Source of the DNA: Lutibacter sp. B1
GTDB taxonomy: Bacteria > Bacteroidota > Bacteroidia > Flavobacteriales > Flavobacteriaceae
Assembly (NCBI RefSeq): GCF_012524075.1
Contig: NZ_JAAZUI010000023.1
Coordinates: forward strand, 1 to 44,823
Reading direction: 5' to 3'
DNA length: 44,823 bases
Made by a program: the position numbers and the translations under genes. The stretch's first letter is position 1; every line of letters begins with the position of its first letter. The notes beneath the pieces were generated by a model that was not told the DNA's origin, searched no databases, and saw only the letters and a program-made list of their open reading frames with translations. Below are positions 2,476 to 23,837 of the stretch, piece by piece.

Positions 2476-2511
2476 CAAAATTAAGTAAATAGTGTATGCA
2501 ATGGAAGTGCA
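2476..2511 (-). promoter_or_regulatory. cadA promoter with TGCA-N7-TGCA operator
   Basis: On the minus strand the inverted repeat TGCACTTCCATTGCA (2511-2497) is followed 13 bases later by TAATTTTG (2483-2476). The latter matches the Bacteroidota -7 consensus TAnnTTTG. The cadA start codon lies 16 bases further on. The same operator and spacing occur at three other promoters in this window. The binding protein is inferred, not shown. Confidence 0.65.
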
Positions 2512-2598
2512 TTTATTAGGTTGATTATTATTATCAACTTGTAAGTTGTTATTAAAAAACTTTTGCTGAAATAAATTATAAAGAAGGCTTCATACGAA

Positions 2599-2784
2599 AT
2601 AAGCCAAAACTTCTTTTAACTTGTTACGAATATGAAAATTGAATTCAGTTAACTCATATTAATTTAGTGAAACTAGTTTGATTTTCTCATGTTCCAATGG
2701 AAATCTAACAGCTGTTAAAATTTCTTTAAACGAATCTAAATTAAAAGAAATTGGGTCGTATTCTATGTATAGATGCTCCTGCTC
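2599..2784 (-). repeat. Third, partial copy of the block B end (HMA-like gene 3' part)
   Basis: From ATAAGCCAAAAC onward this stretch is nearly identical to 22338-22520. It covers the 3' flank and the last ~35 codons of the HMA-like gene. The match to block B ends at about 2782, where tolC-like sequence takes over. It is therefore one half of a recombination junction. Confidence 0.75.
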
Positions 2785-2922
2785 AGAAATTTTTATTGAC
2801 ATATTGTCTTCCGAGACTTTAGACAAAACCTGTGTTTTTGTAATAGGCACCAATTCTTGGGACGTTGCATGATACACACTTAACAAAAACAAAATGACAT
2901 ATATGTTTCTTATTTTTCGCAT
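2659..2922 (-). pseudogene. Chimeric ORF: TolC N-terminus joined to HMA-like protein C-terminus
   Basis: The 87-codon frame begins with a signal peptide and mature start nearly identical to the TolC gene at 8868-10178 (both contain QELVPITKT). After codon ~47 it switches to the C-terminal half of the small HMA-like proteins (both contain HLYIEYDP). The upstream DNA, including the TAnnTTTG box at 2942-2949, also matches the tolC leader. The join lies where both parents carry acidic codons (SEEE and LEEE), suggesting recombination at short homology. The frame is open and has a promoter, so a short secreted protein could be made, but it is best read as a deletion scar. Confidence 0.75.
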
Positions 2923-2987
2923 TGATTCTTAATTTATACTGCAAAACTACATTAGTTAAAAACGTAAGCCGGTAGCAAGGGTTACTT

Positions 2988-3109
2988 AATAAAAAGGCAT
3001 TGAGTATTGCCAGAAAGGCCACTCCAACATCTGCAAAAACAGCTTCTCACATTTCTGTTCATAACTAGCTCCCAAGAACGAATGTTAATATTTTTACATT
3101 AAACGCCAT
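2988..3109 (-). pseudogene. C-terminal fragment of a second CadA-like ATPase
   Basis: The minus-strand frame reads NVKILTFVLG, then several stops, then EAVFADVGVAFLAILNAF. This aligns with the last membrane segments of the CadA protein above (SVKILVLILG and EAVIADVGVALLAILNA). Stops replace both Trp positions of that region. Nothing else of this second pump remains. It shows that the cluster once held two cadA copies and that one was deleted. Confidence 0.8.
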
Positions 3110-3131
3110 TGTAATATTTTATGTTATCAGA

Positions 3132-3830
3132 TTATGTATGCCTCATTATTCTTATTGCATTCGCCAAATAATGCTTATTTCCTTTATAGTAACAATAGCT
3201 TCCGATTTTTGTGTTTATATAGCTTAATTCCTCAACATTTTTAAATCCTGCATTTATCATATAATTTGGAATAAGCCCTTCAACATTATCTTTAGTTGTC
3301 TTAAACCCATCTAGAAGTTGGACAATGTAAAACCGAATTCTCATAAGTTTTGATTTGGCTTCCCCCCAATCCCCTATGATCAGTTCACCATTTGGCTTGA
3401 GCACTCTAAAAATTTCATTTAAACAAGAATTCTTAGTTTGCTTATCAAGTTGGTGAAAAACCAAGGAACTTACAATCTTGTCGAATGTATTATCCTTATA
3501 AGGAAAAACGGTTCCATCGTATAGGTCAAGTCTTATTTCAATCTCTTTTTTTTCCAAACTTCTTTTCTGCAATGTATTTTACTTTTGGATCAATCTCTAA
3601 ACCGAAATAATTTATCTTCTCATTTCTATTATTTGCTAAAATTAAATTTTCACCTGTTCCAAAACCAAATTCTAGTATCTGTTCATTATCTTGTGGATTC
3701 AAGTAATCCTTTATTTAAACTTTCAAATCCATTCATTTCAAGGATAATGATAACCATGAATTGTATTTGACTGCCAAAGCTCAAAACATTTCAGACATTC
3801 TAAATCAAATTCTTTCAATGCTAGGTAAGA
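3132..3830 (-). pseudogene. Broken class I SAM-dependent methyltransferase
   Basis: An open stretch of 146 codons (3132-3572) carries the C-terminal two thirds of a UbiE-like methyltransferase: FDKIVSSLVFHQL (motif II region) and then RVLKPNGELIIGDWG. The SAM-binding N-terminal part continues upstream in other frames: LEFGFGTGENLILANN and YFGLEIDPKVKYIAEKKFGK near 3560-3690. Stops and frameshifts occur between 3690 and 3810, so the gene is not functional as one protein. Methyltransferases of this kind are common passengers of metal and metalloid clusters, but the substrate is unknown. It is the last member of the RND operon. Confidence 0.75.
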
Positions 3831-3842
3831 AATAATAAATTC

Positions 3843-4028
3843 TTAATCTTTTAAACCTAATTTACTCAAAATGGTTTCCAACAAACACCATTTAGTAAAT
3901 GCAGATTGGATTAAGTTCACACCTATAAAAACAGTAAACCACAACCAATTTTGATGCACATATACTGCCAATACTACACTTAATAACACAAATGTGCCAA
4001 CAATAATTCTAAAATATTTATTTAACAT
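3843..4028 (-). CDS. DUF2892 (YgaP-like) small membrane protein
   Basis: This 61-residue protein has two hydrophobic segments (about 8-25 and 27-45) and ends with a conserved-looking TKWCLLETILSKLGLK. That matches the DUF2892 family, the membrane part of YgaP-type proteins, which is often encoded alone or beside rhodanese and metal-efflux genes. The single Cys48 lies in the conserved C-terminal motif. It follows the P-II-like gene by 18 bases and is probably co-transcribed with the RND pump. The molecular role is unknown. Confidence 0.75.
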   Translation of the reverse strand: MLNKYFRIIVGTFVLLSVVLAVYVHQNWLWFTVFIGVNLIQSAFTKWCLLETILSKLGLKD

Positions 4029-4046
4029 TATAATTACTTTTTTAGT

Positions 4047-4352
4047 TTATATAAATTTTTTAATTGGAACAACCACGGCTTTTATTGGGTTGTTTGTTTC
4101 TAAACTTTCATTCAATACTTCTATCAAATCAAATAGTTTTTGGATTTTTTCTTCATCGGTAAATGAGAAGAACAAACTCGATTCCGCTCCTGTTTTTTCA
4201 CTCGGAAACCAACTTCTGGTCATCATGAGTGAGGCAATATTTTTATAGCCATCAATTTCAGAACCACTAAAGTTTTCTATTTGCGCTTTTTTGAATAGTT
4301 TCAAAACATCGCTCTGAAACTGATCTACCGAGGTAACTATTAATAATTTCAT
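4047..4352 (-). CDS. P-II/CutA-like small protein linked to the RND pump
   Basis: The 101-residue soluble protein starts MKLLIVTSVDQFQSDVLKLF and ends KAVVVPI, with alternating strands and helices. It resembles the ferredoxin-like P-II/CutA fold by pattern only. Proteins of this type are found directly downstream of RND permease genes in Bacteroidota. There is no signal peptide, so it should be cytoplasmic. It contains SWFPSEKTG in a loop region. Possible roles are binding of metal or a small ligand to signal to the pump, but this is inference. It is not clearly homologous to the other P-II-like protein at 13912-14250. Confidence 0.6.
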   Translation of the reverse strand: MKLLIVTSVDQFQSDVLKLFKKAQIENFSGSEIDGYKNIASLMMTRSWFPSEKTGAESSLFFSFTDEEKIQKLFDLIEVLNESLETNNPIKAVVVPIKKFI

Positions 4353-4418
4353 TTTTCACATGTAATTTTATCCATTCGAGCGGCGTCTAGAACTAATTAC
4401 TGTTCTATCAAGGTTAAA

Positions 4419-4438
4419 GGTCTCGACTGTGCTCGACC
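4419..4438. repeat. REP-like imperfect palindrome
   Basis: The spacer after the RND permease gene contains GGTCTCGACTGTGCTCGACC, an imperfect inverted repeat around CTGTG. Similar GC-rich CTCGA palindromes are common intergenic repeats in marine Flavobacteriia. It stands out from the AT-rich surroundings. It may act as a transcript end or stabiliser. Confidence 0.4.
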
Positions 4439-4445
4439 AGACAGA

Positions 4446-7400
4446 TTATTTATAATTCTTCTTCTCTATCATATAATAAACCAAAGGCACAACCAATAAT
4501 GTTAATACAGTTGAGACAATTGTTCCTCCCATTAACGAGATTGCTAACCCTTGAAAAATAGGATCGAACAGAATAACGAAAGCTCCAATCACCACTGTTC
4601 CTGCTGTTAATAAAATTGGTGTTGTACGCACTGCTCCAGCTTCAATTGCTGCTTGTTTTAATGGCACACCTTCTGCTGTTCTTAAATTGATAAAGTCAAT
4701 CAGTAATACTGAATTTCTCACCATAATTCCTGCTAAAGCAATCATTCCAATAAAAGAGGTTGCAGTAAAAAATGCTCCCATTATCCAGTGACCTAGAATA
4801 ATTCCGATTAAGGATAGTGGTATGGCAACCATCATTACAATTGGTGCTTTAAAGTTTTGAAACCATCCAACAATCAAGATATAAATCAAGATAATGGCTC
4901 CTAAAAAGGCAATACCTAAATCTCTAAATACTTCTAAAGTAATTTGCCATTCTCCATCCCATTTTACGGTGTAATTATCTTCAAAATCTGGCTGACCTAA
5001 ATACAATTCGTTAAGCTCGTAGCCTTTTGGTAACGGAATTTCTTTTAGTTTTTCTTCCATTCCAAGAATAGCATAGGCAGGACTTTCTAACTCTCCAGCC
5101 ATATCTGCCAAGACGTAAACCACACGCTTTTGGTTTTTACGATAAATACTTTTTGCTGCTATTGTTTCCGTAATTTCTACCAAATCAGCAATAGGAACCA
5201 TGTTTCCTTGTTTTGATTTCACCTTCAGTTGTGAAATATCACTGATTGTAGATTTCTCTTTTTCATCTAAAGTCAATACTAAACCAACTTGGTTTACTGC
5301 ATCTTCATCATATAAAGTCGTGATGGCTCTGTTAGACAAAGCCATATTCATAGTGTAGGCTATTTGTTGTGGTGCTACACCATACAACATTGCTTTTTCC
5401 TTCTTAATATCAAATTGATATTCCGTTTGGTCTGCTTCAACCATCCAATCGATATCCACCACATCATCTGTGTTTTTCAATATTGTTTTAATGCTATTTG
5501 CAATCTTAATCTGTTCGTTATAATCTGGTCCATATACTTCTGCAACAATTGTTGATAAAACTGGAGGTCCTGGTGGCACTTCCACTAATTTCACATTTGC
5601 ATTATATTTTGAAGCAATCTTTTGAATCTCTGGTCGCAATAACTTAGCAATACCATGACTCTGAATATCACGTTCTCCTTTATCAATTAAATTTACCTGA
5701 ATATCTGCCATATTAGATCCACCACGTAAATCGTAATGACGTACCAATCCATTAAAAGTAATTGGTGCAGAAGTACCAACGTAGTTTTGATAATTCACCA
5801 CTTCTGGTCTAGTCGATAAATACTGAGCAATTTCTTTTGTTACAACTCCAGTACGTTCTAAGGTAGTACCTTCAGGCATGTCAATGATTATCTGAAATTC
5901 ATTCTTATTATCAAAAGGCAGCATTTTTACAGCGACAGATTTGGTAAAAAACAACACCATTGTTGCCATTAATACCATAAAAGTTAACCCTAAAAACAAC
6001 CAACGCTTCGCTTTGCTTTCTAATAAAGGACGTTCAAACTTGTTATAAATCTTATAGATAAATGTTTCTTCAATAGGTTTTTCTGGTTTTTCTTCTTCAC
6101 CTTTTTTCTCTTTTTCTCTTAAGAAAATATATCCCAAATAAGGTGTAATAGTTAAGGCAACAAATAAGGATAAAATCATTGCAATAGATGCTCCTATTGG
6201 CATTGGTGCCATATATGGGCCCATTAATCCAGATACAAATGCCATTGGTAACACAGAAGCTATTACTGTAAATGTTGCCAAAATTGTTGGATTTCCTACT
6301 TCGTTAATCGCATATAAAGCTGCTTGTTTAAAAGGCAAGCGTTTCATTTTAAAATGCCGATGCATGTTTTCGGCAATAATGATAGAGTCATCCACCACGA
6401 TTCCTGTTACAAAAACCAATGCAAAAAGGGTGATTCTGTTTAAGGTATAATCGAGCATGTAGTAACTCAACAACGTCAATGCAAACGTAATTGGCACAGA
6501 TAAAAACACAACCAATCCACCTCTCCAACCCATTGCTAGCATTACTACAAGTGTTACAGCAAAGATAGAACCAATAAGGTGCCACAGTAATTCTGATACT
6601 TTTTGCGATGCTGTTTCACCATAATTTCTAGTGATTTCTACATGCACATCATCAGGAATTAAAGTGCTACGTAAATGGGCCACTTTATCTATAATGATTT
6701 CCGAAAGTTTCATCGCATCTGCACCTTTTCGTTTCGCAACAGAAATAGTTACTGCAGGATATTCCGATTTATAATCTGCCGATTTTACACTTCCTTTTCC
6801 GTAACCTAAACTCACATAATTTAGTGGTACTTCTGGTCCATCAATAATTTTAGCAACTTGCTTTAAATATATTGGCTGATTTTGCTGCACACCAACCACT
6901 AAGTTCTCCACATCTGTAACCGATTCTAAAAACTTTCCAGTATTGACAAGGAATTCAGTGTCATTCTTATCAAAACTTCCTGAACTTAATTGACTGTTAT
7001 TCGCCTTTATCATTTCAGAAATCGACAAGAAATCTAATCCACTAGCAGCCAATTTATCTTTATCTAAAACCACTCGCAATTGGCGATTTCTACCTCCAAT
7101 TTTGTCTGTAATCGCAACATCGTTAACCTTTTTTATTTCGGCTTCCAACTCTTGTGCCATTTGGCTTAATTGGTAATCGTCGTAATTCTCGCTCCACAAG
7201 GTTAAACCCAACATTGGGACATCATCAATTGCACGCGTTTTCACCAATGGGAACGTCACGCCTGCTGGCATTTCGTCCATGTGCTTGTTAATTTCGTTGT
7301 ATAATTTCACTAAACTTCGCTCAATGTCTTCATCTACATAAAATTGCACGATGACCATTCCTTGCTCTTTCATAGACGTAGAATACACATATTCCACACC

Positions 7401-7640
7401 TTTAATATTCGAAATTAATTGCTCTAAAGGCTTAGTCACGCGCGATTCCACTTCAGTAGGACTTGCTCCAGGATAACCTACAAAAATATCTGCCATAGGC
7501 ACATCAATTTGTGGTTCTTCTTCACGCGGAATTAAAAACGAACTGTACACACCAACTACCATAAACACAATCATTAACAATACTGTTAGCTTAGACTGCA
7601 TAAAGACTTTGGCAATTTTTCCTGCGATACCTTCTTTCAT
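4446..7640 (-). CDS. RND efflux permease, AcrB-like (1064 aa)
   Basis: This is the inner membrane proton-driven permease of a tripartite efflux system. It has a first membrane helix at about 15-35, a large periplasmic porter loop, helices 2-6 from about 335, a second large loop and a final helix bundle to residue 1064. Helix 4 carries GIVVDDSIIIAEN, with the paired Asp residues that relay protons in AcrB. Helix 10 has GIMVRNSVLLIDF. The DD motif fits the hydrophobe/amphiphile branch better than the metal-specific HME branch, so its substrate may be organic or a metal complex. It sits 142 bases behind the adaptor gene in an operon with the TolC-like channel. Confidence 0.9.
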   Translation of the reverse strand: MKEGIAGKIAKVFMQSKLTVLLMIVFMVVGVYSSFLIPREEEPQIDVPMADIFVGYPGASPTEVESRVTKPLEQLISNIKGVEYVYSTSMKEQGMVIVQFYVDEDIERSLVKLYNEINKHMDEMPAGVTFPLVKTRAIDDVPMLGLTLWSENYDDYQLSQMAQELEAEIKKVNDVAITDKIGGRNRQLRVVLDKDKLAASGLDFLSISEMIKANNSQLSSGSFDKNDTEFLVNTGKFLESVTDVENLVVGVQQNQPIYLKQVAKIIDGPEVPLNYVSLGYGKGSVKSADYKSEYPAVTISVAKRKGADAMKLSEIIIDKVAHLRSTLIPDDVHVEITRNYGETASQKVSELLWHLIGSIFAVTLVVMLAMGWRGGLVVFLSVPITFALTLLSYYMLDYTLNRITLFALVFVTGIVVDDSIIIAENMHRHFKMKRLPFKQAALYAINEVGNPTILATFTVIASVLPMAFVSGLMGPYMAPMPIGASIAMILSLFVALTITPYLGYIFLREKEKKGEEEKPEKPIEETFIYKIYNKFERPLLESKAKRWLFLGLTFMVLMATMVLFFTKSVAVKMLPFDNKNEFQIIIDMPEGTTLERTGVVTKEIAQYLSTRPEVVNYQNYVGTSAPITFNGLVRHYDLRGGSNMADIQVNLIDKGERDIQSHGIAKLLRPEIQKIASKYNANVKLVEVPPGPPVLSTIVAEVYGPDYNEQIKIANSIKTILKNTDDVVDIDWMVEADQTEYQFDIKKEKAMLYGVAPQQIAYTMNMALSNRAITTLYDEDAVNQVGLVLTLDEKEKSTISDISQLKVKSKQGNMVPIADLVEITETIAAKSIYRKNQKRVVYVLADMAGELESPAYAILGMEEKLKEIPLPKGYELNELYLGQPDFEDNYTVKWDGEWQITLEVFRDLGIAFLGAIILIYILIVGWFQNFKAPIVMMVAIPLSLIGIILGHWIMGAFFTATSFIGMIALAGIMVRNSVLLIDFINLRTAEGVPLKQAAIEAGAVRTTPILLTAGTVVIGAFVILFDPIFQGLAISLMGGTIVSTVLTLLVVPLVYYMIEKKNYK

Positions 7641-7658
7641 AATTATTACTTTTTTTCA

Positions 7659-7675
7659 TTCCCACGAAAGTGGAA
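7659..7675. repeat. Short hairpin repeat between adaptor and permease genes
   Basis: TTCCCAC-GAAA-GTGGAA forms a small stem with a tetraloop 20 bases upstream of the permease start. Related TTCCCAC...GTGGGAA palindromes are scattered in many flavobacterial genomes. It may be a REP-type element or affect translation of the permease. Confidence 0.4.
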
Positions 7676-7718
7676 ATCTTTAAATTTTGGGCGTTTAAAC
7701 AGGCTATACATTACAATC

Positions 7719-7748
7719 TTTTTTTGCCATATATGGCAGCAAAAAAAG
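7719..7748. repeat. Inverted repeat in the adaptor-permease spacer
   Basis: A T7 run, TTTTTTTGC, is followed by CATATATGGCA and then GCAAAAAAA. The arms can pair, and the inner CCATATATGG is itself palindromic. It begins 35 bases after the adaptor stop. It could attenuate transcription into the permease gene and so tune the adaptor:permease ratio, but no activity can be shown from sequence. Confidence 0.4.
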
Positions 7749-7782
7749 GATTTTCACTTCTATCCTTAACGCGACTTATAAG

Positions 7783-8859
7783 TTATTGAATTGTAATTTT
7801 CACTCCATTAAACAATTTACCTTCAGCAGAAACTATGTATGCTTCGTCTGCATTTAAACCAGATAGTACTTCTACTTGATCTCCAAAAGTTCTACCCAAA
7901 CGCAACCAACGTAATATGGCTGTATTGCTTTGACTTACTGTATATATACCAGATAATTGGCCGTTAATTATAATAGCATCTGTTGGAATTAAAACCATTG
8001 ATGTGTTTGCTTTTCTTTCCACAGGAAATTGTACTGTAGTAAACATTCCAGATAATATATTTGTATCTGTTTTCTCTAAATCTATTTTTACTAAATATTG
8101 CCCACCAGTATTCTTTGCAGATGTACTTATTTCTGTAACTTTTCCTTTTATGGTTTTATTAATAGACTTTACTAATACATCAACCGAAGAACCATTTTTA
8201 ATTTCAGAAATTTCTGTTTCTGGAACCATTGCCATCACTTCAAAATTCTCAGGCGTTTCCATACTTATTAATGGTACTCCAGGATTAGCCATACTTCCAG
8301 CCTCTACATTCTTTCTAGTAACTATTCCGCTAAAAGGTGCAGTAATATTGCTGTAAGCAAACTGTGCGTTTATTTCATTTTTCATTTGGTTTGCAGCTTC
8401 TACTCTAGCTTTTGCCATGTCATAATTAGCTGTCATGTCATCCATTTCTTTTTGAGATGCGCTATTATCTGCAAATAAATTTTGAAAACGATTGTAATCT
8501 TTTTGTGCATTTCTTAAAGCAGCACTTGCTTCTGTAATTCCTGCATTTACTTGTGCTCTTTTTGCTTGTAAATCGCTATTATTGATTGAAACTAATATTT
8601 GTCCTTTATTTACTTTATCTCCAACATTTACATGCACTTTATTAACGAAACCCATCATTCTGGTACTTAAATCTGCACTATGAGATGCTTGAATTTTTCC
8701 ACTAACAGATAAAAATGGACTGTTGCTATTTGCTACCACTTGACTTGTTTTTACAGAAATTGCTGGCGAATTATCTACAACAGGTTTTTTGTCTTTGCTA
8801 CCACAACTTGCTACTAATAGCACTACAGAAAGTGTTAGGATTGTATATATTTTTTTCAT
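7783..8859 (-). CDS. RND periplasmic adaptor (membrane fusion protein), lipoprotein
   Basis: The 358-residue adaptor connects the RND permease to the TolC channel. It starts with a lipoprotein signal (VASC, Cys19), then a half-lipoyl motif (VNVGDKVNKGQILVSIN), a helical hairpin (about 95-165), the second lipoyl half with TAPFSGIVTRKNVEAG, and beta-barrel and membrane-proximal domains ending at GVKITIQ. Length and order are typical of HlyD/AcrA-type adaptors. It follows the tolC stop by 8 bases. No metal-binding extensions are present, unlike CusB in this window. Confidence 0.9.
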   Translation of the reverse strand: MKKIYTILTLSVVLLVASCGSKDKKPVVDNSPAISVKTSQVVANSNSPFLSVSGKIQASHSADLSTRMMGFVNKVHVNVGDKVNKGQILVSINNSDLQAKRAQVNAGITEASAALRNAQKDYNRFQNLFADNSASQKEMDDMTANYDMAKARVEAANQMKNEINAQFAYSNITAPFSGIVTRKNVEAGSMANPGVPLISMETPENFEVMAMVPETEISEIKNGSSVDVLVKSINKTIKGKVTEISTSAKNTGGQYLVKIDLEKTDTNILSGMFTTVQFPVERKANTSMVLIPTDAIIINGQLSGIYTVSQSNTAILRWLRLGRTFGDQVEVLSGLNADEAYIVSAEGKLFNGVKITIQ

Positions 8860-8867
8860 CTTAAAAA

Positions 8868-10178
8868 TTATTCTTTAGTTAAAAATTGTAAATAAGCTTG
8901 TGCGTAATTGTATTCAAAAATAGTTTGGTAATATTCTAATTGCTTTTGTGCATATTGTGTTTCAGCAATTAACAAATCGGATGTTTTTTCTAAACCTTCT
9001 TTAAATCTATTGGTTCTTATTCTTAAAGATTCTTCTGATTGTTGTAGTGCTAAAGAGGTTAGTTTTAGTTTATTTTCAGCATCTAAAAAAGCACGTTTTG
9101 CTTTATTCAATTCTAAATTACTTTGGGACACATATTGCTTGTATTCTAGCTTAGATTTTTCAAATTCCGCCTTACTTTTCTGTTCTTTTCCAAATCGCTT
9201 TGAACCTTGAAAAATATCCCAACTTAATTGCGCTCCAATCAAATACCCATTGGCATCACCTTGAAAAATTTGGTCATCATACAATTCGTAACTCCCAAAT
9301 GCATTTAAACGTGGTAGAAAAGCCATTTTATCTGCTTTATTCATAGCCTCATATGCATTAGAAGCTAATTGCATTGCTTTGATGTCTGAACGATTTTCTG
9401 AAATCGTTTTATCTTCAACTGTAAATGTTGCAACAGTTAATTCATCTGATGGTGTATAAACTACATAGTTTTCATCATTCATTAAAAATGATAAGTAATT
9501 AGATGCGTTTTGCACATTACTTTTTGCTGTTTGTAATTGGTTTTGCACTTCGGTGACTCTTACTTCAACATTCAACACATCTGCACGTTGTAAATAACCT
9601 TGTTTAAAGCTATTATCTGCTAACTTTTTATTGTCGTTTGCGGCTTTTAAAGCTTTTTCTAAAACAGCAACCGCTTTATATGCTAATTGTAATTGCATGT
9701 ATGCTTTCTCAACCTCAAAAACTAAATAATCTTGTGTGCGTTCTGTTTTTAAAGACATCGCTTCCATTTTAGACTTGGCAGCTTTACGTTGGTAAATACC
9801 ATCTAAATTGATTAATGGTTGCTGAATTTCGAACTTTGTTGCGTAGTTTTCTATCTGTGAAGGATCATTTAGTAAAGCAGGATTAAAATCGTTTTGCGTT
9901 AATATTTCCTGATTCAACTTAGAACCAAAAGCCATTAACGGATTGGTGGTTGCAATGCCTGTATAACTTGCTGTAATATTTGGTAAAAACACAGCATTGG
10001 TCTGCCTGTAATCTGCTCTGGCTTGATTAAATTCTTCTTCCGAAATTTTTATTGATATGTTATCTTCCGAGACTTTAGACAAAACCTCTGTTTTTGTAAT
10101 AGGCACCAACTCTTGGGACGCTGCATGATGCACATTAAACAAAAACAAAATGACACATATGTTACTTATTTTTCTCAT
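8868..10178 (-). CDS. TolC-family outer membrane efflux channel
   Basis: The 436-residue protein has a signal peptide ending near HHAASQ and then two repeats of long helices with the beta strands of a TolC-type trimer. Typical features are QPLINLDGIYQRKAAKS and the later helix EESLRIRTNRFKEGLEKTSDL. It provides the outer membrane exit for the adaptor and permease encoded just downstream. The first ~47 codons and the leader are duplicated in the chimera at 2659-2950. The upstream region holds three 12-bp tandem repeats and a TAnnTTTG box. Confidence 0.9.
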   Translation of the reverse strand: MRKISNICVILFLFNVHHAASQELVPITKTEVLSKVSEDNISIKISEEEFNQARADYRQTNAVFLPNITASYTGIATTNPLMAFGSKLNQEILTQNDFNPALLNDPSQIENYATKFEIQQPLINLDGIYQRKAAKSKMEAMSLKTERTQDYLVFEVEKAYMQLQLAYKAVAVLEKALKAANDNKKLADNSFKQGYLQRADVLNVEVRVTEVQNQLQTAKSNVQNASNYLSFLMNDENYVVYTPSDELTVATFTVEDKTISENRSDIKAMQLASNAYEAMNKADKMAFLPRLNAFGSYELYDDQIFQGDANGYLIGAQLSWDIFQGSKRFGKEQKSKAEFEKSKLEYKQYVSQSNLELNKAKRAFLDAENKLKLTSLALQQSEESLRIRTNRFKEGLEKTSDLLIAETQYAQKQLEYYQTIFEYNYAQAYLQFLTKE

Positions 10179-10197
10179 TGATTCTTAATTTATACTG

Positions 10198-10205
10198 CAA
10201 AACTA
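10198..10205 (-). promoter_or_regulatory. Candidate -7 box of the tolC operon
   Basis: TAGTTTTG on the minus strand matches TAnnTTTG and lies 19 bases before the tolC start codon. The identical box is kept in the duplicated leader at 2942-2949. No clear -33 TTG is visible at the usual distance. Confidence 0.45.
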
Positions 10206-10211
10206 CTTTAC

Positions 10212-10247
10212 TTTTGTGTTCATTTTTGTGTTCATTTTTGTGTTCAT
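10212..10247 (+). repeat. Three tandem 12-bp repeats upstream of tolC
   Basis: The unit TTTTGTGTTCAT is repeated three times exactly, directly upstream of the tolC -7 box. On the transcribed strand each unit reads ATGAACACAAAA. It may be a set of regulator sites or simple slippage. The duplicated leader near 2950 lacks the repeats. Confidence 0.75.
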
Positions 10248-10273
10248 TTTTCTAATATTTTTTTGTTAATGAA

Positions 10274-10522
10274 TTAATTTTCAAGGTTATTGCTTTTATG
10301 TGTTTCTATATACGTTTGTAATAATGCTTTTAAACTATCTAGATAATCGGAAAAAGTGTTAACGGTTAGCTCGGGGTGATCAATCGCAGGAATGGTGGCA
10401 GGATTTTCATCCAGATACCTGTACAATTCCGGATATTCTTGTTCTAACTTCAACGTCAAATCGTTGATTTCCTTAGTAAGCTGTTGTAGTTTTTTCATCA
10501 TTCTGATTTCAAAATTCCTCAA
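10274..10522 (-). CDS. Conserved hypothetical coiled-coil protein
   Basis: The 82-residue acidic, soluble protein has a helical start (KKLQQLTKEINDLTLKLEQE) followed by YPELYRYLDENPATIP and a second helix. Small proteins with this pattern accompany efflux genes in Bacteroidota, but I do not know a function. Translation may start at the internal MMKK (10501 or 10498) rather than 10522, because similar proteins tend to begin MKKL. It sits between block A and tolC and has no signal peptide. Confidence 0.6.
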   Translation of the reverse strand: MRNFEIRMMKKLQQLTKEINDLTLKLEQEYPELYRYLDENPATIPAIDHPELTVNTFSDYLDSLKALLQTYIETHKSNNLEN

Positions 10523-10611
10523 TCACCCTCTTTCAGTTTTTCTTTGTCTTGTACTTCTCATAATCAATGTCATTCCTTTTAATTTACCATGATTATGAAA
10601 ATTGAATTTGA

Positions 10612-11332: not shown

Positions 11333-11397
11333 AATATTTGTATTTAATTAATATTTAATTGTTATTGGATTTCATTCTATCAAACACTTGTAACAAA

Positions 11398-11646
11398 CTA
11401 AGTGCAATACATAAACTCCATAAATTTATTTGGTTTACCTTCTAAACAAAGTTTAGCCTGTTTAATTTCACTATCTAGTAACTCTATAAATTTATCATTA
11501 TCACATAAGCCTATTTGAAAACCATTCACGTTTGCCATAATTAGAGGGTTTTTTTCCTTAATTATTTGTTCCCTAAACGCCATACATTCATTTATGTGAT
11601 ATGTTGCGTCGCATTTTAACTGTTTACTAATGTTTGATTTTTTCAT
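11398..11646 (-). CDS. Conserved small Cys-containing protein (block A copy)
   Basis: The 82-residue soluble protein has four Cys (KCDATYH, INEC, GLCDND, LCLEGK) plus one near the C-terminus. I do not recognise the family. The paralogue at 22841-23089 keeps these Cys residues, and the substitutions between copies are conservative, so it is under selection as a protein. No signal peptide. In both blocks it lies between the membrane protein and the HMA-like protein. A role in cytoplasmic metal handling is possible. Confidence 0.65.
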   Translation of the reverse strand: MKKSNISKQLKCDATYHINECMAFREQIIKEKNPLIMANVNGFQIGLCDNDKFIELLDSEIKQAKLCLEGKPNKFMEFMYCT

Positions 11647-11745
11647 ATTATATAAATTTTCATTAATTTTTTTTAAGCATAAAAATCAGAATGTCATTCT
11701 GGTTGTCTCCTGTAAATATTTGTAACATTTAATCAAAATTATTTT

Positions 11746-11970
11746 TCAATTTTTGTTTTTTCTAAACCAAACCAGATAAATAAGTAGTAGAGAAATCAAT
11801 CCAGGAACAATTATTAAAACCGAGTTGAGCGTTTTTGTTATAGTTATTCCGAACCAAACCAGAGGAAACGATTCCGAATACTTTAAAACAGTTTGACCAA
11901 TGGTTACAGAAGCTAAAATACCTGCTATGAACATTATAATTACTTTTAAATTTTCCATGGTCTTAGACAT
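11746..11970 (-). CDS. Small two-helix membrane protein (block A copy)
   Basis: I place the start at MSKTMENLK (11970), because the paralogue at 23172-23405 begins there. That gives 74 residues with hydrophobic segments at about 8-28 and 47-68 and a charged RKNKN tail. The gene follows the DUF302 stop by 7 bases. In block B the two genes overlap as TAATG, so they are translationally coupled. The family is unknown to me. The product may anchor or assist the DUF302 protein. Confidence 0.65.
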   Translation of the reverse strand: MSKTMENLKVIIMFIAGILASVTIGQTVLKYSESFPLVWFGITITKTLNSVLIIVPGLISLLLIYLVWFRKNKN

Positions 11971-11977
11971 TAAATCA

Positions 11978-12364
11978 TTAAATATTGTCAATAACACTTT
12001 TCAGCTTATCTCTCACTTCTGCGGCGACTTTTCTCAATGTTTCATTCTCTACTGCACTCATAGAAGCAGCGGGGTCAACCGCAGAAACTTCTATTATTCC
12101 TTTTTCTCTTTCTTGAACGATAACATTACAAGGCAACATTGCGCCAATTTTATCTTCAGCTTGCAGTGCTTTATATGCAAACGGAGGATTGCAAGCACCC
12201 AAGATTCTGTAATTATAGAAATCCACATCGAGCTTTTTCTTCAACGTAGCTTTAATGTCTATTTCAGTTAATATACCAAAACCTTCTTTTTTTAGCTCTT
12301 CAGTGACTTTTTCAACTATCTGATCAAAATTTCCAGAAATGATTTTATTGAAATAATAGTTCAT
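11978..12364 (-). CDS. DUF302 domain protein (block A copy)
   Basis: The 128-residue protein matches the DUF302 family. It has an N-terminal strand and helix, then FYNYRILGACNPPFAYKAL and IGAMLPCNVIVQE, where the two Cys residues and the conserved Asn-Pro sit. It then has EVSAVDP and a C-terminal helix. DUF302 proteins are small, often found with thiol or metal stress genes, and have no established reaction. The block B copy differs at about 14 positions by my count. It is the first gene of the block. Confidence 0.85.
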   Translation of the reverse strand: MNYYFNKIISGNFDQIVEKVTEELKKEGFGILTEIDIKATLKKKLDVDFYNYRILGACNPPFAYKALQAEDKIGAMLPCNVIVQEREKGIIEVSAVDPAASMSAVENETLRKVAAEVRDKLKSVIDNI

Positions 12365-12430
12365 AATTATTTTTTATTTGGTATTAATAGATTCACTTTA
12401 TAAATTTCCTCTTTGATTCCGACTGAACCC

Positions 12431-12655: not shown

Positions 12656-12728
12656 GATTTTTAAATTTTAGTATTAATTATTTTATGTTTTAAAGCAAAT
12701 AACTTCTACACTGTATATTCAATATTAT

Positions 12729-13427
12729 TTATCTCATCCCCATACCACAACCACAGCCTCTTCGCATTCTGTAGTTAGAGTTTTGAGCACTACTTTTCAG
12801 AGTACTTAAATAGGCATAGATATCTTCTTTATTTTTATTTTCCATAGCCTCAAATGAAGGCATATAACAAGGACCCATATTTAATATTTGTTTAAATTGG
12901 GAAATATTAACCCAATTATTAACTCCATTAAGTAGAGGAGGCTTCATTCCCCATTGCATTTGTTTTGGTGAATTTGAATTTTCTACATCTGGTTCGTGGC
13001 ATTGTGCACAATTTGCCACAAAAAGATTTTTACCTTGTTCTATAGAAGAAACTTCAGTTACAATAGCTGACTCAGTTGATTCACCGTATAAAAAACCTAC
13101 AATGGCTTTTCTTTCTGAATCAGATAAATGAGAGAAATTAGGCATTATATTCCTTCCTGTTTTAAGCAGTTCACTTATATGATCTTTACTCAACTTTTGA
13201 TTGATATCTACTAAAGAAGGAAAAGTCGGTAAGTTTCCTTGCCGTTCAGAGCCGTGACAAACAGCACAGTTATTTTGAAATAGTTCACTACCTGTTATCT
13301 TTAGCTCTTTTTTAATAGGCTGATAATTGTTTGTAGCAATTTTAGAATTATTGCTTTGAAAACCATACGCTAACATAATTAATATGGTTAATAATAAACC
13401 GAAACCTATATTCATTTTTGTTTTCAT
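12729..13427 (-). CDS. Dihaem c-type cytochrome with Cys/Gly-rich tail
   Basis: The 232-residue exported protein has an N-terminal membrane or signal segment and two haem-binding motifs, CAVCH (54-58) and CAQCH (140-144). Each lies in a cytochrome c domain with likely axial Met (IMPNF and YMPSF). The C-terminus ends RRGCGCGMGMR, unusual for a cytochrome and possibly a metal-binding tag. It is expected in the periplasm or on the membrane, passing electrons. Its promoter carries the TGCA-N7-TGCA operator, tying it to the metal response. The partner enzyme is not identified. Confidence 0.85.
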   Translation of the reverse strand: MKTKMNIGFGLLLTILIMLAYGFQSNNSKIATNNYQPIKKELKITGSELFQNNCAVCHGSERQGNLPTFPSLVDINQKLSKDHISELLKTGRNIMPNFSHLSDSERKAIVGFLYGESTESAIVTEVSSIEQGKNLFVANCAQCHEPDVENSNSPKQMQWGMKPPLLNGVNNWVNISQFKQILNMGPCYMPSFEAMENKNKEDIYAYLSTLKSSAQNSNYRMRRGCGCGMGMR

Positions 13428-13456
13428 ATTGTACTTATTTACGAATTAATATTCAA

Positions 13457-13492
13457 TAAAAGTACTTCTATTTATAGTGCAACGGAAGTGCA
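13457..13492 (-). promoter_or_regulatory. Cytochrome c promoter with TGCA-N7-TGCA operator
   Basis: On the minus strand TGCACTTCCGTTGCA (13492-13478) is followed 13 bases later by TACTTTTA (13464-13457), a near match to TAnnTTTG. The operator begins one base after the stop codon of the Fur-family gene, so it separates that gene from the cytochrome gene and gives the latter its own promoter. Confidence 0.65.
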
Positions 13493-13493
13493 T

Positions 13494-13907
13494 TTATGTG
13501 TTGCATTTATCACAAATACCTGTAACCGTTAAACTAACATTATCTGCCTCATAACCATCAGGTAACTTTATATAAGGAATTTTATTTTTGGGAAAACAAA
13601 TAGTTTCATTACAAATTTTACAGTGAAAATGTACATGCAAATCCGTTTCTATTTCACAATGGCAATTTTCTTCACACAACGCATATTTTGTAATTCCGGT
13701 GCCATCAACAATTTTATGTGCAATTTCGTTTTTTACAAAGGTTTTTAAAGTACGGTATATTGTAGTTCTGTCTGATTTTATAAAATGATCTTCTAAGTCC
13801 GTTAAACTAACTGCTGCATTTTTATTTCTGAGAAGTTGTAAAACCAACAAGCGCATAGCAGTTGGTTTTACATTCTTATTCTCCAATATTTTTTCCAAAT
13901 CTTGCAT
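13494..13907 (-). CDS. Fur-family metal-dependent transcriptional regulator
   Basis: The 137-residue protein has the Fur winged helix (about 8-75, recognition helix SDRTTIYRTLKTF at 45-57). The dimerisation domain contains HVHFHCKIC (91-99). The CxxC pairs at 96/99 and 132/135 would bind structural zinc. The regulatory site residues His91, His93 and His95 are present. Fur-family members sense Fe, Zn, Ni, Mn or peroxide; which applies here cannot be told. It follows the P-II-like gene by 4 bases at the end of the czc transcript. The operators in this window may be its targets, because one lies directly downstream of it. Confidence 0.88.
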   Translation of the reverse strand: MQDLEKILENKNVKPTAMRLLVLQLLRNKNAAVSLTDLEDHFIKSDRTTIYRTLKTFVKNEIAHKIVDGTGITKYALCEENCHCEIETDLHVHFHCKICNETICFPKNKIPYIKLPDGYEADNVSLTVTGICDKCNT

Positions 13908-13911
13908 AGTG

Positions 13912-14250
13912 CTAAATATTAAATCTTTTTATGGATTTGCCTGTTTTAATTCTGTACGCATCATTAATGTCTGATACATAAATAATCCCATCTGCAGGAT
14001 ACGGTGTAGCGGCATTTTTACAAATGAGCTGGCAAGCTTGTTCGGCTTCTTCATTTTGGCAAACCAATTCAAGTTTAATCATTTTACTGTCCGCAAAGTG
14101 AAATTTTAACGAAGGCAATGAGTCCTCACGTTTATAAGTTCCTGTTCCTTCACACTCGGATAATGTTACACTTTCAAAGCCCTTTTCTTTAAGGGCTGCT
14201 ACTACTTTCTCTAATTTAATTGGTTTTATAAATGCTTTAATTTCTTTCAT
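13912..14250 (-). CDS. P-II-family-like regulator in the czc operon
   Basis: I choose the start at MKEIKAFIKPIKLEKVVAAL (14250), which matches how P-II proteins begin; an upstream ATG at 14301 would add 17 unrelated residues. The 112-residue protein keeps the ferredoxin-like P-II fold, with the T-loop region replaced by CEGTGTYKREDSLPSLKFHF, and ends with IIYVSDINDAYRIKTGKS, like the P-II C-loop. P-II-like proteins beside CzcA-type pumps are known in many bacteria and are thought to sense metal or a ligand. The Cys and His residues here could bind metal. Confidence 0.8.
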   Translation of the reverse strand: MKEIKAFIKPIKLEKVVAALKEKGFESVTLSECEGTGTYKREDSLPSLKFHFADSKMIKLELVCQNEEAEQACQLICKNAATPYPADGIIYVSDINDAYRIKTGKSIKRFNI

Positions 14251-14365
14251 CTGGTTATATTTAGTTTTTTTTAATGTCAAATGTAATAAGCAAATAGTCA
14301 TTTCGGTTGGTATTGAAATACTGATTACGCTTATTTCATCTTTTCAAATTTTATATTGACTTAAT

Positions 14366-15571: not shown

Positions 15572-15574
15572 TTG

Positions 15575-18500
15575 TTAATTATATTTTCCTGTTAAATAAT
15601 TGATTTCATTCACGGTTTGATTGTAAAGATTTAGCCTATCCAAATAATCCCTTTTAATTTGTACTGCTTGCTCTAAAGTTGTGATATATTCTACATAACC
15701 AACTTCGCCTTCTTTATAGGCTGTATTGGCTGAAGAAAAAAGTTTATCGGCCAATTGCAAGCCTTTGGTTTCATAATATAATAATGATGCCTTATGTTTT
15801 TCATATTCTTGGATATTAGCCTGTAATACCGAGTTAATATCTAATTTAGTTTGTTCAAAATTCATTTGGGCTATTTCAGTATTTTTCTTGGCGGCTTGTG
15901 TTTTTCCTTTTTGAGACCAAAAGAACAAAGGGACTTTTACACCTACCTGAAACCCGGTAAAGTTTTCTACACCTTCTATTTGCTGATTGAAATAACCGGC
16001 AGATAAATCGGGTAAAAACTGTGCCTTTTCTAATTTATATTCTCTTTCTGAAACAGCAACAAATTGTTCCTGAACTTTTAAAATTGGACTATTGTCACCT
16101 GATTCTTCCGAAATAAAAGAGGTTTTTTGCAAGGCACTATCTGAAATTGTTAAAGTATCTGTTATATTAAGGATTAATTGCAATTGCCTTCTTAAATTAT
16201 CTACATCTAAACTTGCTTCAGATTTTAAGAGGTTTATTTCTTCCCGTTTCCCTTCAGCAGACATTTTCTCTATTAAATTTGTTTCACCAGATTCAAATCT
16301 TTTTTCGGCAATAATGGCAAAACTTTGAAACTCTTTTTCTAAATTTGAAATTAAAATAAATTTACTTTTAGCAAACCACAACTCCATATAAGCCGCTCTC
16401 ACATTCCGTTCCAACCTATTTTTTTCGAGAGCCAAAGAAACTTCGCTTAATGCAATCCGTTCTTTCTGTAATTTTGATTGTGTGCCATAAACAGTTGGAA
16501 ATTTAAAATCTTGATTCACGCTGATTTCATAATCGGTTTGCAACCCATTTAGTTGCCCTTTTGTATATGAAATTGCTGTTTTATCTAAATCGAAAGCCGA
16601 TTTTTTTAAACTTTCTTGCTTTTCAATTTCCAGATTGGCCGCTTTTATGGTTGGATTATTTTCAAACGCAATGGCAACAGCTTCCTCTATTGTTAAATGT
16701 TGAGGCTGTTCTTGGGCAATTGCTGAATTTATTCCTATGAAAGAAAAGAAAACCAATAGGATTATCGATAAAATTGAAGTATTTATTGCACCTGTTTTTT
16801 TATCCATTCTTTTTTGTAAACGCTTTTCAACAAAATAATATAACACAGGAACCACCAATAATGTTAATAGGGTTGATGAAATTAAACCACCAATAACAAC
16901 AGTGGCTAAAGGTCGTTGAACTTCAGCACCTGCTGAGCCAGAAATTGCCATTGGCATAAAGCCCATGATAGCTGCAATTGCTGTTAATAATATTGGGCGC
17001 AAACGTTCTTCGGTTCCTAATAAAATACGATCTTTTAAATTTGTCATTCCTTCTAATTTTAAGCTGTTAAACCTACTTACCAGCACTAAACCATTTAATA
17101 CAGCTACACCAAACAACACCACAAAACCAACACCTGCCGAGATGCTAAATGGCATACCACGTAAAAACAGGCTAAAAATTCCGCCAATAGCCGCCAATGG
17201 CACCGCCATATAAATCATTGTTGCTTGTTTTACAGAGTTTAAGGCGAAGTATAGCAATATAAAAATCAGAAAAAGGGCTATAGGCACTACAATGGTTAAG
17301 CGTTCTTTTGCCCTTTTTAAATTTTCAAAAGAACCTCCATATTCAATAAAATAACCTTCAGGTAGATCTAATTCAGCATCTAATCTTTTCTGTACTTCTT
17401 CTACCATAGATTCCACATCTCTACCTCTTACATTAACACCTACAGAAACTCTTCGATAGGTATTATCACGAGAAATTTGCATAGGACCAGGTTTGTAACT
17501 AATTTTAGCTAATTCTTTTAGTGGGATTTGAGAACTTTCATTCGGTAAATCCACAAATAAGTTTTTTAAATCATCAATACTTTGCCTGTTCTTATCTGCA
17601 AAACGAACTACCAAATCGAATCGTTTTTCACCTTCGAAAATAATTCCAGCATCGGCACCTGCAAAAGCAGTGCTTACATATTGGTTTAATTTATCTATGG
17701 TTAATCCGTATTTAGCCAGTTTCGCTCTTTGGTAATTTACTGTAATTTGTGGTAATCCGTCTGTAGCTTCAGCACGAACACCTGCAGCACCATCAACCGT
17801 TTGGATAATTTTAGCCATTTCTTCCGCTTTAATTGCAAGTACATCCAAATCGTTACCATATAATTTAATAGCAACATCTTCACGAACACCTGTAAGCAAT
17901 TCATTAAATCGTAATTCAACTGGTTGTGTAAACAGAAAATTGGCACCTACAATAGCTTTCAACTTAACTTCCATTTTTTCAATTAATTCAGCTTTAGTTT
18001 CTGCTGAGGTCCATTTACTCTTATCTTTTTCAAGAATGATAAACGTATCCACAATATCCATAGGCATAGGATCCGTTGGTATTTCTGAAACACCGATTCT
18101 ACCAACCATTGTTTTAACTTCATCAGGGAAATTAGCATTGATGATATTTTCCGCTTCTTCTGACACTTTTATGGATTCTGACAGCGAACTACCGGGTTTC
18201 ATAAAAATTTGCATTGCAATATCCCCTTCATCTAATTTTGGAATAAATTCTCCTCCCATTCTTGCAAACACAAAAGCCGCAATTACAAATAAAAACACAG
18301 CCATAGCAAGTACCATTTTTCTGAACTTTAAAGCACCTTGAATTAAAGGTTTATATACTTTAAAAATGCTTGTCATCATTTTACCACTAATTTTGGTTAA
18401 CCAATCTTCAAGTTTGGAGAACCAATTTCGTTTTTTCTGTGAGGTTGGCTTTAAAAATAATGACGCCATTACAGGTACATAGGTTAAGCATAATAATAAA

Positions 18501-19965
18501 GCGCCTAAAACAGCAAATCCAAAGGTGTATGCCATAGGGGTAAACATTTTACCCTCTACACCAGTTAAGAATAAAATAGGTGTAAAAACGATAAGGATAA
18601 TTAGTTGGCCAAAAAAAGCCGAGTTCATCATCATACTACTCGATTTATAAGTAAGTTCGTCCATTTCTTGAGACGTAAAATCGGCTTTATTCTTTTTGAT
18701 TCGTTGCTCTATATGATGCACAGTTCCTTCAACTATAATAACAGCCCCATCCACTATAATTCCAAAATCAATAGCACCTAAAGACATTAAATTTGCCCAA
18801 ACCCCTGTTGCTTTCATCAAAATAAAAGCGAACAATAAGGATAAAGGAATAATAGATGCCGTTAGTAAACCTCCTCGTAAACTTCCCAACAATAAAACCA
18901 ATACAAATACAACAATCAATGCCCCTTCAATTAAGTTTTTTGAAACGGTGCTTGTAGTACGTGCAATTAAATCACTTCTATCTAAAAAGGGTTTTATTTC
19001 AAGACCTTCTGGTAGTGATTTTTGAATATTTTCAATACGTTTTTGAACATTTTTAATCACTTCATTCGGATTCTCTCCTTTTAGCATTAGTACTTGACCA
19101 CCAACAGCTTCCTGGCCGTCTTCAGTGAAAGCGCCATAACGAACTGCAGACCCAAAACGAACGGCATCAGCCACATCTTTTATTAAAATGGGTGTGTTTT
19201 CATTGTTTTCTATAACAATATTTTCAATGTCTTCTAAAGTTCTTGCTAAGCCTTCTCCACGAATAAAGTTGGCCTGATGATTTTTTTCGATGTAAGCACC
19301 ACCTGTATTGGAGTTGTTAGCCTCAAGAGCTTCAAAAACCTCACTAATACTAATTCCCATACTGTTCAGTCGATTGGGATTTAATGCTATTTCGTATTGT
19401 TTAACATTACCTCCAAAAGAATTGATTTCAACTACTCCTGGTACTAATGCCATTTGCCGCTTAACAATCCAATCTTGAATAGTTCGTAAATCTGAAGGCG
19501 AATATTTATGTTCAAACCCTCCTTTGGCACCAATGAGTATTGGTAAATTTCTCCCAAACCAGTAGCGATTGGCGCCATAAATGGCTTTCCAAAACCTGCC
19601 GGTATATCTTCTTGTATTTCAGCTAATTTTTCTTGAACCAATTGGCGGGGTAAATAAGTTCCCATTTCATCTTTAAATACAATGGTTACTACTGAAAGGC
19701 CAAAACGAGATACAGAACGCAACTCTGTAACACTTGGTAAATTAGCAACAGCCAACTCAATAGGATAGGTAACAAATTGTTCAATATCTTCTGTTCCCAA
19801 ATTGGGAGCAACAGTAATTACTTGTACTTGATTGTTGGTAATATCGGGTACAGAACCCAATTTTATGGTCATCATTGAATGTATTCCAGCACCAATAAGT
19901 ACCAAAATAAATAAGCCAACAATGAATTTATTGTTAATAGAAAAGCGAATGATTTTATCGATCAT
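15575..19965 (-). pseudogene. czcA: CzcA RND permease fused to a CzcC/TolC channel, with one frameshift
   Basis: The gene encodes a metal RND permease of the HME group, with VPDITNNQVQ near the N-terminus and DFGIIVDGAVIIVEG in helix 4. It runs straight on into a TolC-family channel of about 410 residues (from MDKKTG at 16807). An internal signal-like segment ending NSAIAQEQ marks the join. Near 19517-19522 a single base is missing in the run GGAGGG: the first frame (from 19965) ends at 19444, while the correct frame resumes as FEHKYSPSDLRTIQDWIVK. No other defect is seen, so this is either a recent mutation or a sequence error. Restored, it would be about 1463 residues. It probably exports Zn, Cd or Co. 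Confidence 0.85.
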
Positions 19966-20039
19966 TTTATGATATGTTTAAGTTATAAAAATGTGTAATC
20001 ACCAACAAAAATGCAGGTGCTTAAAAACGTATTTATAAA

Positions 20040-20354
20040 CTAAACTTGAGGGGGCTGATCTATTTTGTTAGAAAAATTATTTAAGAAGAATGTTTCTTGT
20101 ATGCCAATAACTGCTTTTGAAGCTATTGTAATATAAAGCTCTTTCTCAACAGGTGGCGTTGGTTTTGTGATACTAATAGAACAACATGCGCAAATACAAA
20201 AAGGAGAGCATAAATCCATCGTATTATCACCGTTATCATCATTATTTTGAGTAATTGAAGCTAATTGCTCAGACCCAAAAACAGCTTCATCATCACAATG
20301 TATTGCTGTTAAGGCTATAGAATAAATAGATAATATGATTACTAATACTTTCAT
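20040..20354 (-). CDS. DUF6660-like small exported Cys-rich protein
   Basis: The 104-residue protein has an N-terminal signal segment ending near AIHC, a dense Cys motif CSPFCICACC (49-58) and a C-terminus ending PPQV. This matches the DUF6660 family, which sits first in czc-type operons of Bacteroidota. The Cys cluster suggests periplasmic metal capture. It is the first gene of the czc transcript, 74 bases before czcA, and its promoter carries one of the four TGCA-N7-TGCA operators. Confidence 0.8.
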   Translation of the reverse strand: MKVLVIILSIYSIALTAIHCDDEAVFGSEQLASITQNNDDNGDNTMDLCSPFCICACCSISITKPTPPVEKELYITIASKAVIGIQETFFLNNFSNKIDQPPQV

Positions 20355-20362
20355 TAAGGAAG

Positions 20363-20398
20363 CAAATATAACAATTTAATAAATGCAATAGGGTTGCA
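20363..20398 (-). promoter_or_regulatory. czc operon promoter with TGCA-N7-TGCA operator
   Basis: On the minus strand TGCAACCCTATTGCA (20398-20384) is followed 13 bases later by TATATTTG (20370-20363), a perfect TAnnTTTG box. The first ATG of the operon lies 8 bases beyond. This is the most divergent of the four operator copies, but it keeps both TGCA arms and the same distance. Confidence 0.6.
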
Positions 20399-20437
20399 AA
20401 GTTTTTTTAGCAGCGTTTTAATTTTATTTAAAAAAGG

Positions 20438-20644
20438 TTAACAGCAACCTTTTTTTTCTTGAATAGATGGGCAAGCGACTGTTCCATAAGTACAATATAT
20501 ACAGCAATCTCCTTCATTTGGTTTTAGAACGCTTTTACAATTTTCACATTCGTAAAAGAATTGACAAGCATCTGTTGGCATTGTTTCCTCTTTTTTATGT
20601 CCACAGTTTGGACAAGTGATTTCTGATTTTAATATGATTTTCAT
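20438..20644 (-). CDS. GDCCVxC-domain Cys-rich protein
   Basis: The 68-residue soluble protein has 11 Cys: CPNC (11-14), C27, CENC (33-36), GDCCIYC (45-51), C58 and a terminal GCC. This matches the GDCCVxC family, which in some organisms has selenocysteine in the motif. Here all positions are read as ordinary Cys codons. It probably binds zinc or a soft metal in the cytoplasm. It is transcribed alone from its own operator-bearing promoter, and the czc promoter follows. Confidence 0.85.
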   Translation of the reverse strand: MKIILKSEITCPNCGHKKEETMPTDACQFFYECENCKSVLKPNEGDCCIYCTYGTVACPSIQEKKGCC

Positions 20645-20681
20645 AAATTTTGTTTTTTGACCTACTTAATTTATTGCTTTT

Positions 20682-20716
20682 TAAATATACAAATAAATTG
20701 ATGCAATGGTAGTGCA
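20682..20716 (-). promoter_or_regulatory. GDCC gene promoter with TGCA-N7-TGCA operator
   Basis: On the minus strand TGCACTACCATTGCA (20716-20702) is followed 12 bases later by TATATTTA (20689-20682), close to TAnnTTTG. The GDCC start codon lies 37 bases further on. Confidence 0.6.
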
Positions 20717-23791: not shown

Positions 23792-23837
23792 AATTATTTT
23801 TTATTTGGTATTAATAGATTCACTTTATAAATTTCCC

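Follow-up and report, generated by a model that had tools for sequence, protein, structure and literature searches.

Phased inverted-repeat boxes beside a Fur/Zur-family gene as probable operators of a metal-efflux regulon in Lutibacter sp. B1

Control of metal efflux usually lies with MerR, ArsR, CopY or two-component regulators, and the usual task of the Fur family is to shut off metal uptake, not to run pumps. Its canonical zinc member, Zur, is a zinc-bound repressor of uptake genes. In this regard, we describe four TGCA-N7-TGCA boxes in a contig of 44,823 nucleotides from Lutibacter sp. B1 (NZ_JAAZUI010000023.1; 'the window' means this whole stretch), one of which lies directly behind a Fur-family gene, Fur1. 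The sequence evidence makes it probable, as the best overall explanation, that the four boxes are Fur/Zur-family operators of a metal-efflux regulon, and their reader is very likely a Fur-family protein of this clade, with Fur1 as the likely gene. Fur1 shares with canonical Zur the Fur fold, the Cys4 pairs, the D/C/H/H residues and a box of the 7-1-7 type. Unlike canonical Zur, its proposed targets are efflux and accessory genes instead of an uptake regulon, it scores below the NCBIfam Zur cut-off, it has an added C82/C84 loop and its box stands at one or two fixed spacings.

Fur-family control of exporters is known from isolated examples in which Zur itself takes on a second role, according to the available part of PMC6103462. 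In the portion available of PMC5472717, S. coelicolor Zur likewise controls an exporter gene, zitB, via a Zur box; there it is the uptake Zur itself that acts, upstream of -35 and by oligomerising, whereas here a separate paralog from the efflux operon would act on a box over the -33 region. C. glutamicum Zur, as the accessible text of PMC6103462 describes it, also controls exporters (zrf and zra), from a site over the upstream promoter element, but it does so through a 10-1-10 direct repeat and as metal-poor Zur, while the repeat here is inverted. P. aeruginosa Zur at czcR similarly ties Zur to czc efflux, although indirectly, via a two-component regulator and from sites downstream of the transcription start (PMC9827704, in the part available). 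Zinc homeostasis in Flavobacteriales is also the subject of work on Riemerella anatipestifer ZntR, which the available part of PMC11960050 annotates as a MerR-family and not a Fur-family protein. Among the open-access PMC full texts listed by literature searches, none was seen to report that a Fur-family protein controls czc or zinc efflux in Bacteroidetes or Flavobacteria, and PMC9976891, in the part available, has no bearing on the matter. Beyond the Fur family, PhoB-type activators bind a box which replaces -35 and, as here, stands at a fixed spacing to the downstream element; they differ in that they are response regulators of an unrelated protein family and use direct repeats.

The window contains exactly four TGCA-N7-TGCA boxes, and the same four alone when one arm mismatch is tolerated. 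All are upstream of minus-strand genes and have a -7 element of the Bacteroidota type downstream:

2497..2511, minus strand: putative operator box of cadA, TGCACTTCCATTGCA, from the pattern scan of the window
2476..2483, minus strand: -7 element of cadA, TAATTTTG, 13 bp from the box
13478..13492, minus strand: putative operator box of the cytochrome c gene, TGCACTTCCGTTGCA, directly behind Fur1
13457..13464, minus strand: -7 element of the cytochrome c gene, TACTTTTA, 13 bp from the box
20384..20398, minus strand: putative operator box of the DUF6660/czc operon, TGCAACCCTATTGCA, from the pattern scan
20363..20370, minus strand: -7 element of the DUF6660/czc operon, TATATTTG, 13 bp from the box
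20702..20716, minus strand: putative operator box of the GDCC gene, TGCACTACCATTGCA, from the pattern scan
20682..20689, minus strand: -7 element of the GDCC gene, TATATTTA, 12 bp from the box

A sequence-only reading of this DNA had proposed these four sites and spacings, all of which are as it gave them when read on the minus strand, and had also noted that a Fur-family gene abuts one site; the frame ends at 13494 and the box at 13492, with one base between. Its remark that the copper half of the island lacks the site holds even with one arm mismatch allowed, and this absence would suggest a separate regulon there. A further RND-type gene set at 4446-10178 has no box. The window boxes keep four-base arms, and the box at locus L018, TGCAATACTATTGCA, is a perfect 7-1-7 palindrome.

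A phased box is defined here as TGCA-N7-TGCA, then N12 or N13, then TAnnTTT[GA]. There are four in the window against a mean of 0.012 and a maximum of 1 in 1000 dinucleotide shuffles; the bare box averages 1.12 per shuffled window and reaches at least four in 4 of 100 shuffles. Throughout the genome the bare box has 34 places (14 for a backwards control), five of which are phased, namely the four of the window and C117:13461, which precedes a second czc operon; this operon contains the paralog Fur2 and is followed by ATPase genes and Fur3. The 29 unphased boxes comprise 25 within open reading frames (ORFs) of at least 80 aa and 4 outside. Bare-box counting was rejected as an insufficient test, the unphased boxes being near background. 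The scan of genome and relatives which the sequence-only reading had proposed finds phased boxes conserved in relatives.

The association with Fur1 is seen in a set of 16 genome loci retrieved by the Fur protein alone. All 16 have the box 12-13 bp from the -7 element; 15 match TAnnTTTG perfectly, and the 4-kb contig L030 departs from it by one base. At family level the pattern TGCAN6TTGCA-N12/13-TAnnTTTG occurs in 148 of 397 genomes (backwards control: 4, counted by eye), and the phased box is present in 132 of the 166 genomes with a Fur match below 1e-30 as against 16 of the 231 others. In a class sample of 197 genomes the corresponding counts are 11/14 Fur-positive and 10/183 others, or 10/13 and 10/183 without the genome of the window itself; nine genomes of this sample, from seven families other than the window's own, have a box that begins 6-13 bases past the Fur match. 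At locus L017 the Fur gene is directly followed by the box and spacer found upstream of cadA in the window, and then by cadA; L016, L022, L027 and the window have cadA farther from Fur, still with a box. Of the 16 family genomes that carry the box but lack a Fur match at the 1e-30 threshold, six have no match and ten have weaker ones. In two of the former (G043, G289) the pattern strings look like chance, and in two (G105, G232) the contig seems, from its coordinates, to stop short of the operon's far end. In the latter, a Fur relative adjoins the box in G026, G142, G138 and G363 (L150, L162, L159, L157) or ends the operon behind it in G211 (L160), the box is at a CDF gene without adjacent Fur in G364 (L165), and G295 has a Fur fragment (L164). 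The remaining genomes of the 16 are G108 and G307 (no match) and G315, G326 and G377 (weaker match).

The box also follows Fur genes away from czc. The order Fur, box, TonB receptor occurs without czc in L146-L149 and L155. Two loci, L150 (by Pfam) and L156 (by look), have a LacAB_rpiB-type gene, Fur, a box overlapping the Fur end and a cation-efflux gene, again with no czc, and neither L138 (Fur, box, zntA) nor L137 (box, Fur, zntA) has an adjacent czc. TonB-dependent receptors are usually tied to uptake. In L146 a Cation_efflux gene stands next to the receptor, with the same box behind the Fur relative. Conversely, no box, phased or not, was found within 1.5 kb upstream of czcA in any of 30 loci from Fur-negative genomes, where the czcA genes are 46-55% identical to the query and some may be other paralogs; this set comes from 60 of 106 high-completeness Fur-negative genomes, with 30 of 45 listed matches obtained as loci. 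At Fur-linked czcA loci the phased box is present in 22 of 25 (9/12 in strict-pattern-negative and 13/13 in chosen positive genomes). The sequence-only reading suggested that a single DNA-binding protein acts at these promoters and named the Fur-family protein its best candidate; this is supported by co-occurrence, by the unrelated contexts and by the box-free czcA loci of Fur-negative genomes.

The phase of the box with respect to the promoter is rigid. In 62 distinct Fur loci (66 fetched, being the 16 Fur-retrieved, 30 others and 20 strict-pattern-negative, minus identical Fur genes), a box lies no more than 110 bp behind the Fur gene in 42, with the best -7 element at 13 bp in 38, 12 in two and 20 in two, ties being broken towards 12. 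On average the 34 distinct 13-nt spacers agree at 41% of positions, the next ATG lies anywhere from 5 to 210 away from the -7 element, and the 38 elements at 13 bp comprise 8 perfect, 27 one base off and 3 two off. With spacers of 0-30 allowed, 150 spacer strings from the family, which are those among the matches listed, give 51 at N12 and 0 to 9 at every other value. In F. johnsoniae the -7 element is numbered -12 to -5 and the -33 motif is much less evident than -7 (PMC6847099, in the part available). By that numbering, the box spans about -40/-39 to -26/-25, in other words it covers the -33 region.

Four PF01475 proteins were found in the genome search, at 91, 43.6 (Fur3), 29.9 (Fur1) and 28.7 (Fur2) bits, the first of which is taken as the ordinary Fur; Fur1 is 53% and 46% identical to its two same-genome paralogs, Fur2 and Fur3 (contig C117). 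Its FUR domain scores 31.3 bits over a PF01475 cut-off of 23.1, and its AlphaFold2 model has the winged-helix and dimerisation fold (mean predicted local distance difference test, pLDDT, 83; the Cys loop is under 50 and not resolved), matching Fur, PerR and Zur structures in the PDB with E values down to 5e-8 and template-modelling scores of ~0.5-0.7. The structural-zinc CxxC pairs C96, C99, C132 and C135 are invariant in 16/16 and 54/54 relatives. D68, C78, H91 and H93, whose Zur-type sensory roles we take as given, are kept in 54/54 efflux-group proteins, and C78, H91 and H93 align with the FurB structure 2o03. C78, C82 and C84 occur together in 54/54 proteins of the efflux group, 4/4 of the TonB-receptor group and 0/5 of the uptake group; C84 is mostly absent in four solo and seven other proteins. 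Fur1 can be described as a Zur-like paralog that carries an extra Cys loop. A tree built on few columns, and with long branches, recovers the uptake, TonB-receptor and solo groups each as one strongly supported clade; the efflux group, labelled by exclusion, does not form a single clade (three changes), and Fur3 falls inside it and L141 outside. Fur3 (L092 11747-12181, G000 contig C117) lacks C78, C82 and C84 despite its place among the efflux group, and its signal may differ.

From the computed box, its phase, its link to the Fur clade and the conserved residues we infer binding, the metal concerned (Zn/Cd) and activation. The four sites would be 15-bp (7-1-7) inverted-repeat operators of a Fur/Zur-family regulator, and Fur1, as the last gene of the czc operon under one of them, would regulate itself. 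The proposed regulon takes in the czc RND pump, cadA, the cytochrome c and the GDCC protein:

513..2459, minus strand: cadA/zntA-type P-type ATPase, TIGR01512 and TIGR01525 over cut-off
12729..13427, minus strand: cytochrome c with two domains, PF13442 in two stretches
13494..13907, minus strand: Fur1, Fur/Zur-family regulator and proposed box reader, PF01475 31.3 bits, cut-off 23.1
13912..14301, minus strand: P-II-like protein of the czc operon, PF00543
14366..15571, minus strand: CzcB-type adaptor, TIGR01730 over cut-off
15575..19453, minus strand: CzcA-CzcC fusion, larger of two frames, by comparison with relatives
19444..19965, minus strand: CzcA N-terminal frame, PF00873 and TIGR00914 matches
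20040..20354, minus strand: DUF6660 lead gene of the czc operon, PF20365 over cut-off
20438..20644, minus strand: GDCCVxC-domain protein, NF041374 over cut-off

Fur-family sensors usually bind DNA when metal-loaded. Here the metal-loaded regulator would bind the box via the Zur-type site D68, C78, H91 and H93, tuned by the added cysteines C82 and C84, and once bound would replace the contact at -33, an element used by this phylum's unusual sigma factor, so turning efflux on. Closing efflux genes with the loaded form would be senseless, which leaves two options, activation by that form or reversed logic.

A metal-bound activator, rather than relieved repression, is tentatively favoured at close to an even chance, on account of the fixed phase with unconserved spacers, the sub-consensus -7 elements and the kept Zur-type site, and activation of exporters by Zur has precedents. 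The same regulator with reversed logic, such that metal-poor protein over -33 blocks the polymerase and excess metal releases it via the Cys loop, is a serious contender whose probability falls somewhat below even. It would need reversed allostery in a protein that has kept its Zur-type site, many -7 elements behind Fur are sub-consensus, and a blocker needs no single fixed spacing with unconserved spacers; set against these points, the box is on the promoter core, autoregulation from the end of an operon is typical of efflux repressors, placement over -33 together with autoregulation suits repression equally well, and the -7 element is perfect in many czc promoters. C. glutamicum Zur with unfilled sensory sites, moreover, represses exporters over -35 (PMC6103462, in the part available).

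That the boxes are read by the paralogs Fur2 or Fur3 or by another unlinked host regulator, with Fur1 minor or redundant, appears unlikely. Fur2 does have its own phased box at its czc operon, and boxes at czc or CDF genes without adjacent Fur (L154, L158, L165) indicate that action in trans occurs, yet in unrelated contexts the box keeps its place beside a Fur relative, and all 30 czcA loci without a genomic Fur gene are box-free. Part of the work, or all of it, may fall to Fur2 and Fur3. Far less credible is a box that belongs to czc promoters and is read by an unrelated MerR, ArsR or response regulator, with Fur as a fellow traveller, for while box and Fur share the czc operon in the window and many relatives, this czc-only explanation was rejected on the boxes that follow Fur genes without czc and on the 30 box-free czcA loci, and no MerR or ArsR Pfam match was found among the 39 window ORFs scanned. 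Chance repeats, common as the bare box is in genome and shuffles, are a negligible explanation, already contradicted by the excess of phased boxes over shuffles and their conservation in relatives.

Similar boxes also occur in what looks like an uptake counterpart, where gene names were given by look and not by Pfam. Boxes like TGCAACTAGGTTGCA lie where a MerC-like gene and an ABC-transporter operon ending in another Fur-family gene diverge, in the promoters between the two, with spacings of 14 and 15-16 (L170-L173), and before COG0523-type GTPases, with spacings of 16 and 17 (L173, L174). COG0523 and folE2 are listed as Zur-regulated in the available part of PMC6103462, so the kind of box agrees with the kind of protein. 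The efflux and uptake proteins differ more clearly, by Cys pattern, than do the phases of their boxes.

Several observations weigh against the proposed operators and their reader. Phase does not cleanly split efflux from uptake. In L160, a locus similar to the uptake ones, the spacing is 13 towards the operon and 15 in the opposite direction, and solo Fur-like genes show 13 (L157), 12 (L159) and 1 (L177) in their own promoters; L157-L160 were fetched by the N12-13 pattern. Directly behind the gene, 20 of the 62 Fur loci have no box, and four of the 20 strict-negative loci (L106, L111, L112 and L114, the last a 7.2-kb contig) have neither a box behind Fur nor a phased box at czc. That sample covers 20 of 22 Fur genomes with a listed place (count by eye), from 34 such genomes in all; 20 further positive loci were picked by choice, all in pattern-positive genomes, and one set of relatives' loci was selected by the phased pattern itself. 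The Fisher values (~1e-53 for the family, ~1e-9 for the class) are too small to be literal, the genomes being related, and some pattern matches are chance, the boxes of L151 and L161 lying inside ORFs. Fur1 is under the NCBIfam Zur equivalog cut-off (31.1 against 167 bits), Zur still being its best NCBIfam model, and the box overlaps the promoter core as a repressor site would.

In many Flavobacteriaceae the resident switch for efflux looks to be a Fur-family clade in its own right, marked by a Cys loop and a box in rigid position; both a close Fur relative and a phased box are present in 132 of 397 family genomes searched. This clade offers a regulator and a regulon to genomes which have neither in the open-access literature searched. 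That a Zur-derived clade of the Bacteroidia turned from uptake repressor to efflux activator, keeping zinc site and box, gaining the Cys loop and phase-locking the box as a -33 substitute, is conceivable but on balance doubtful; the question raised is whether the phase of a box relative to -7 can make a Zur-type protein an activator on Bacteroidota polymerase.

As to the other genes of the window, Fur1 is the sole regulator-type Pfam match before 26 kb among the 39 ORFs scanned, which include no Pfam match to a MerR-type (ZntR/CadR) or ArsR/SmtB-type gene near the targets. The other regulators are a LuxR-PAS protein (26292-27101) and an AraC-type protein (34513-35088), the latter beside copper-type efflux genes and a candidate regulator for the other half of the island. 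The czcA-C gene of the window is in two overlapping frames (1292 and 173 aa), either a real break or an assembly error, and an intact 1463-aa frame is found in L016. The P-II-like gene (13912-14301) adjoins Fur1, as in many relatives, and its product is a possible metal-binding PII-like partner of the pump. A direct repeat of ~1.07 kb, 89% identical and with DUF302-type genes (11357-12420 and 22800-23846), flanks the Fur-czc segment, which, given these flanking repeats, may have moved as a unit; shorter repeats lie near 2.6, 10.6 and 22.4 kb.

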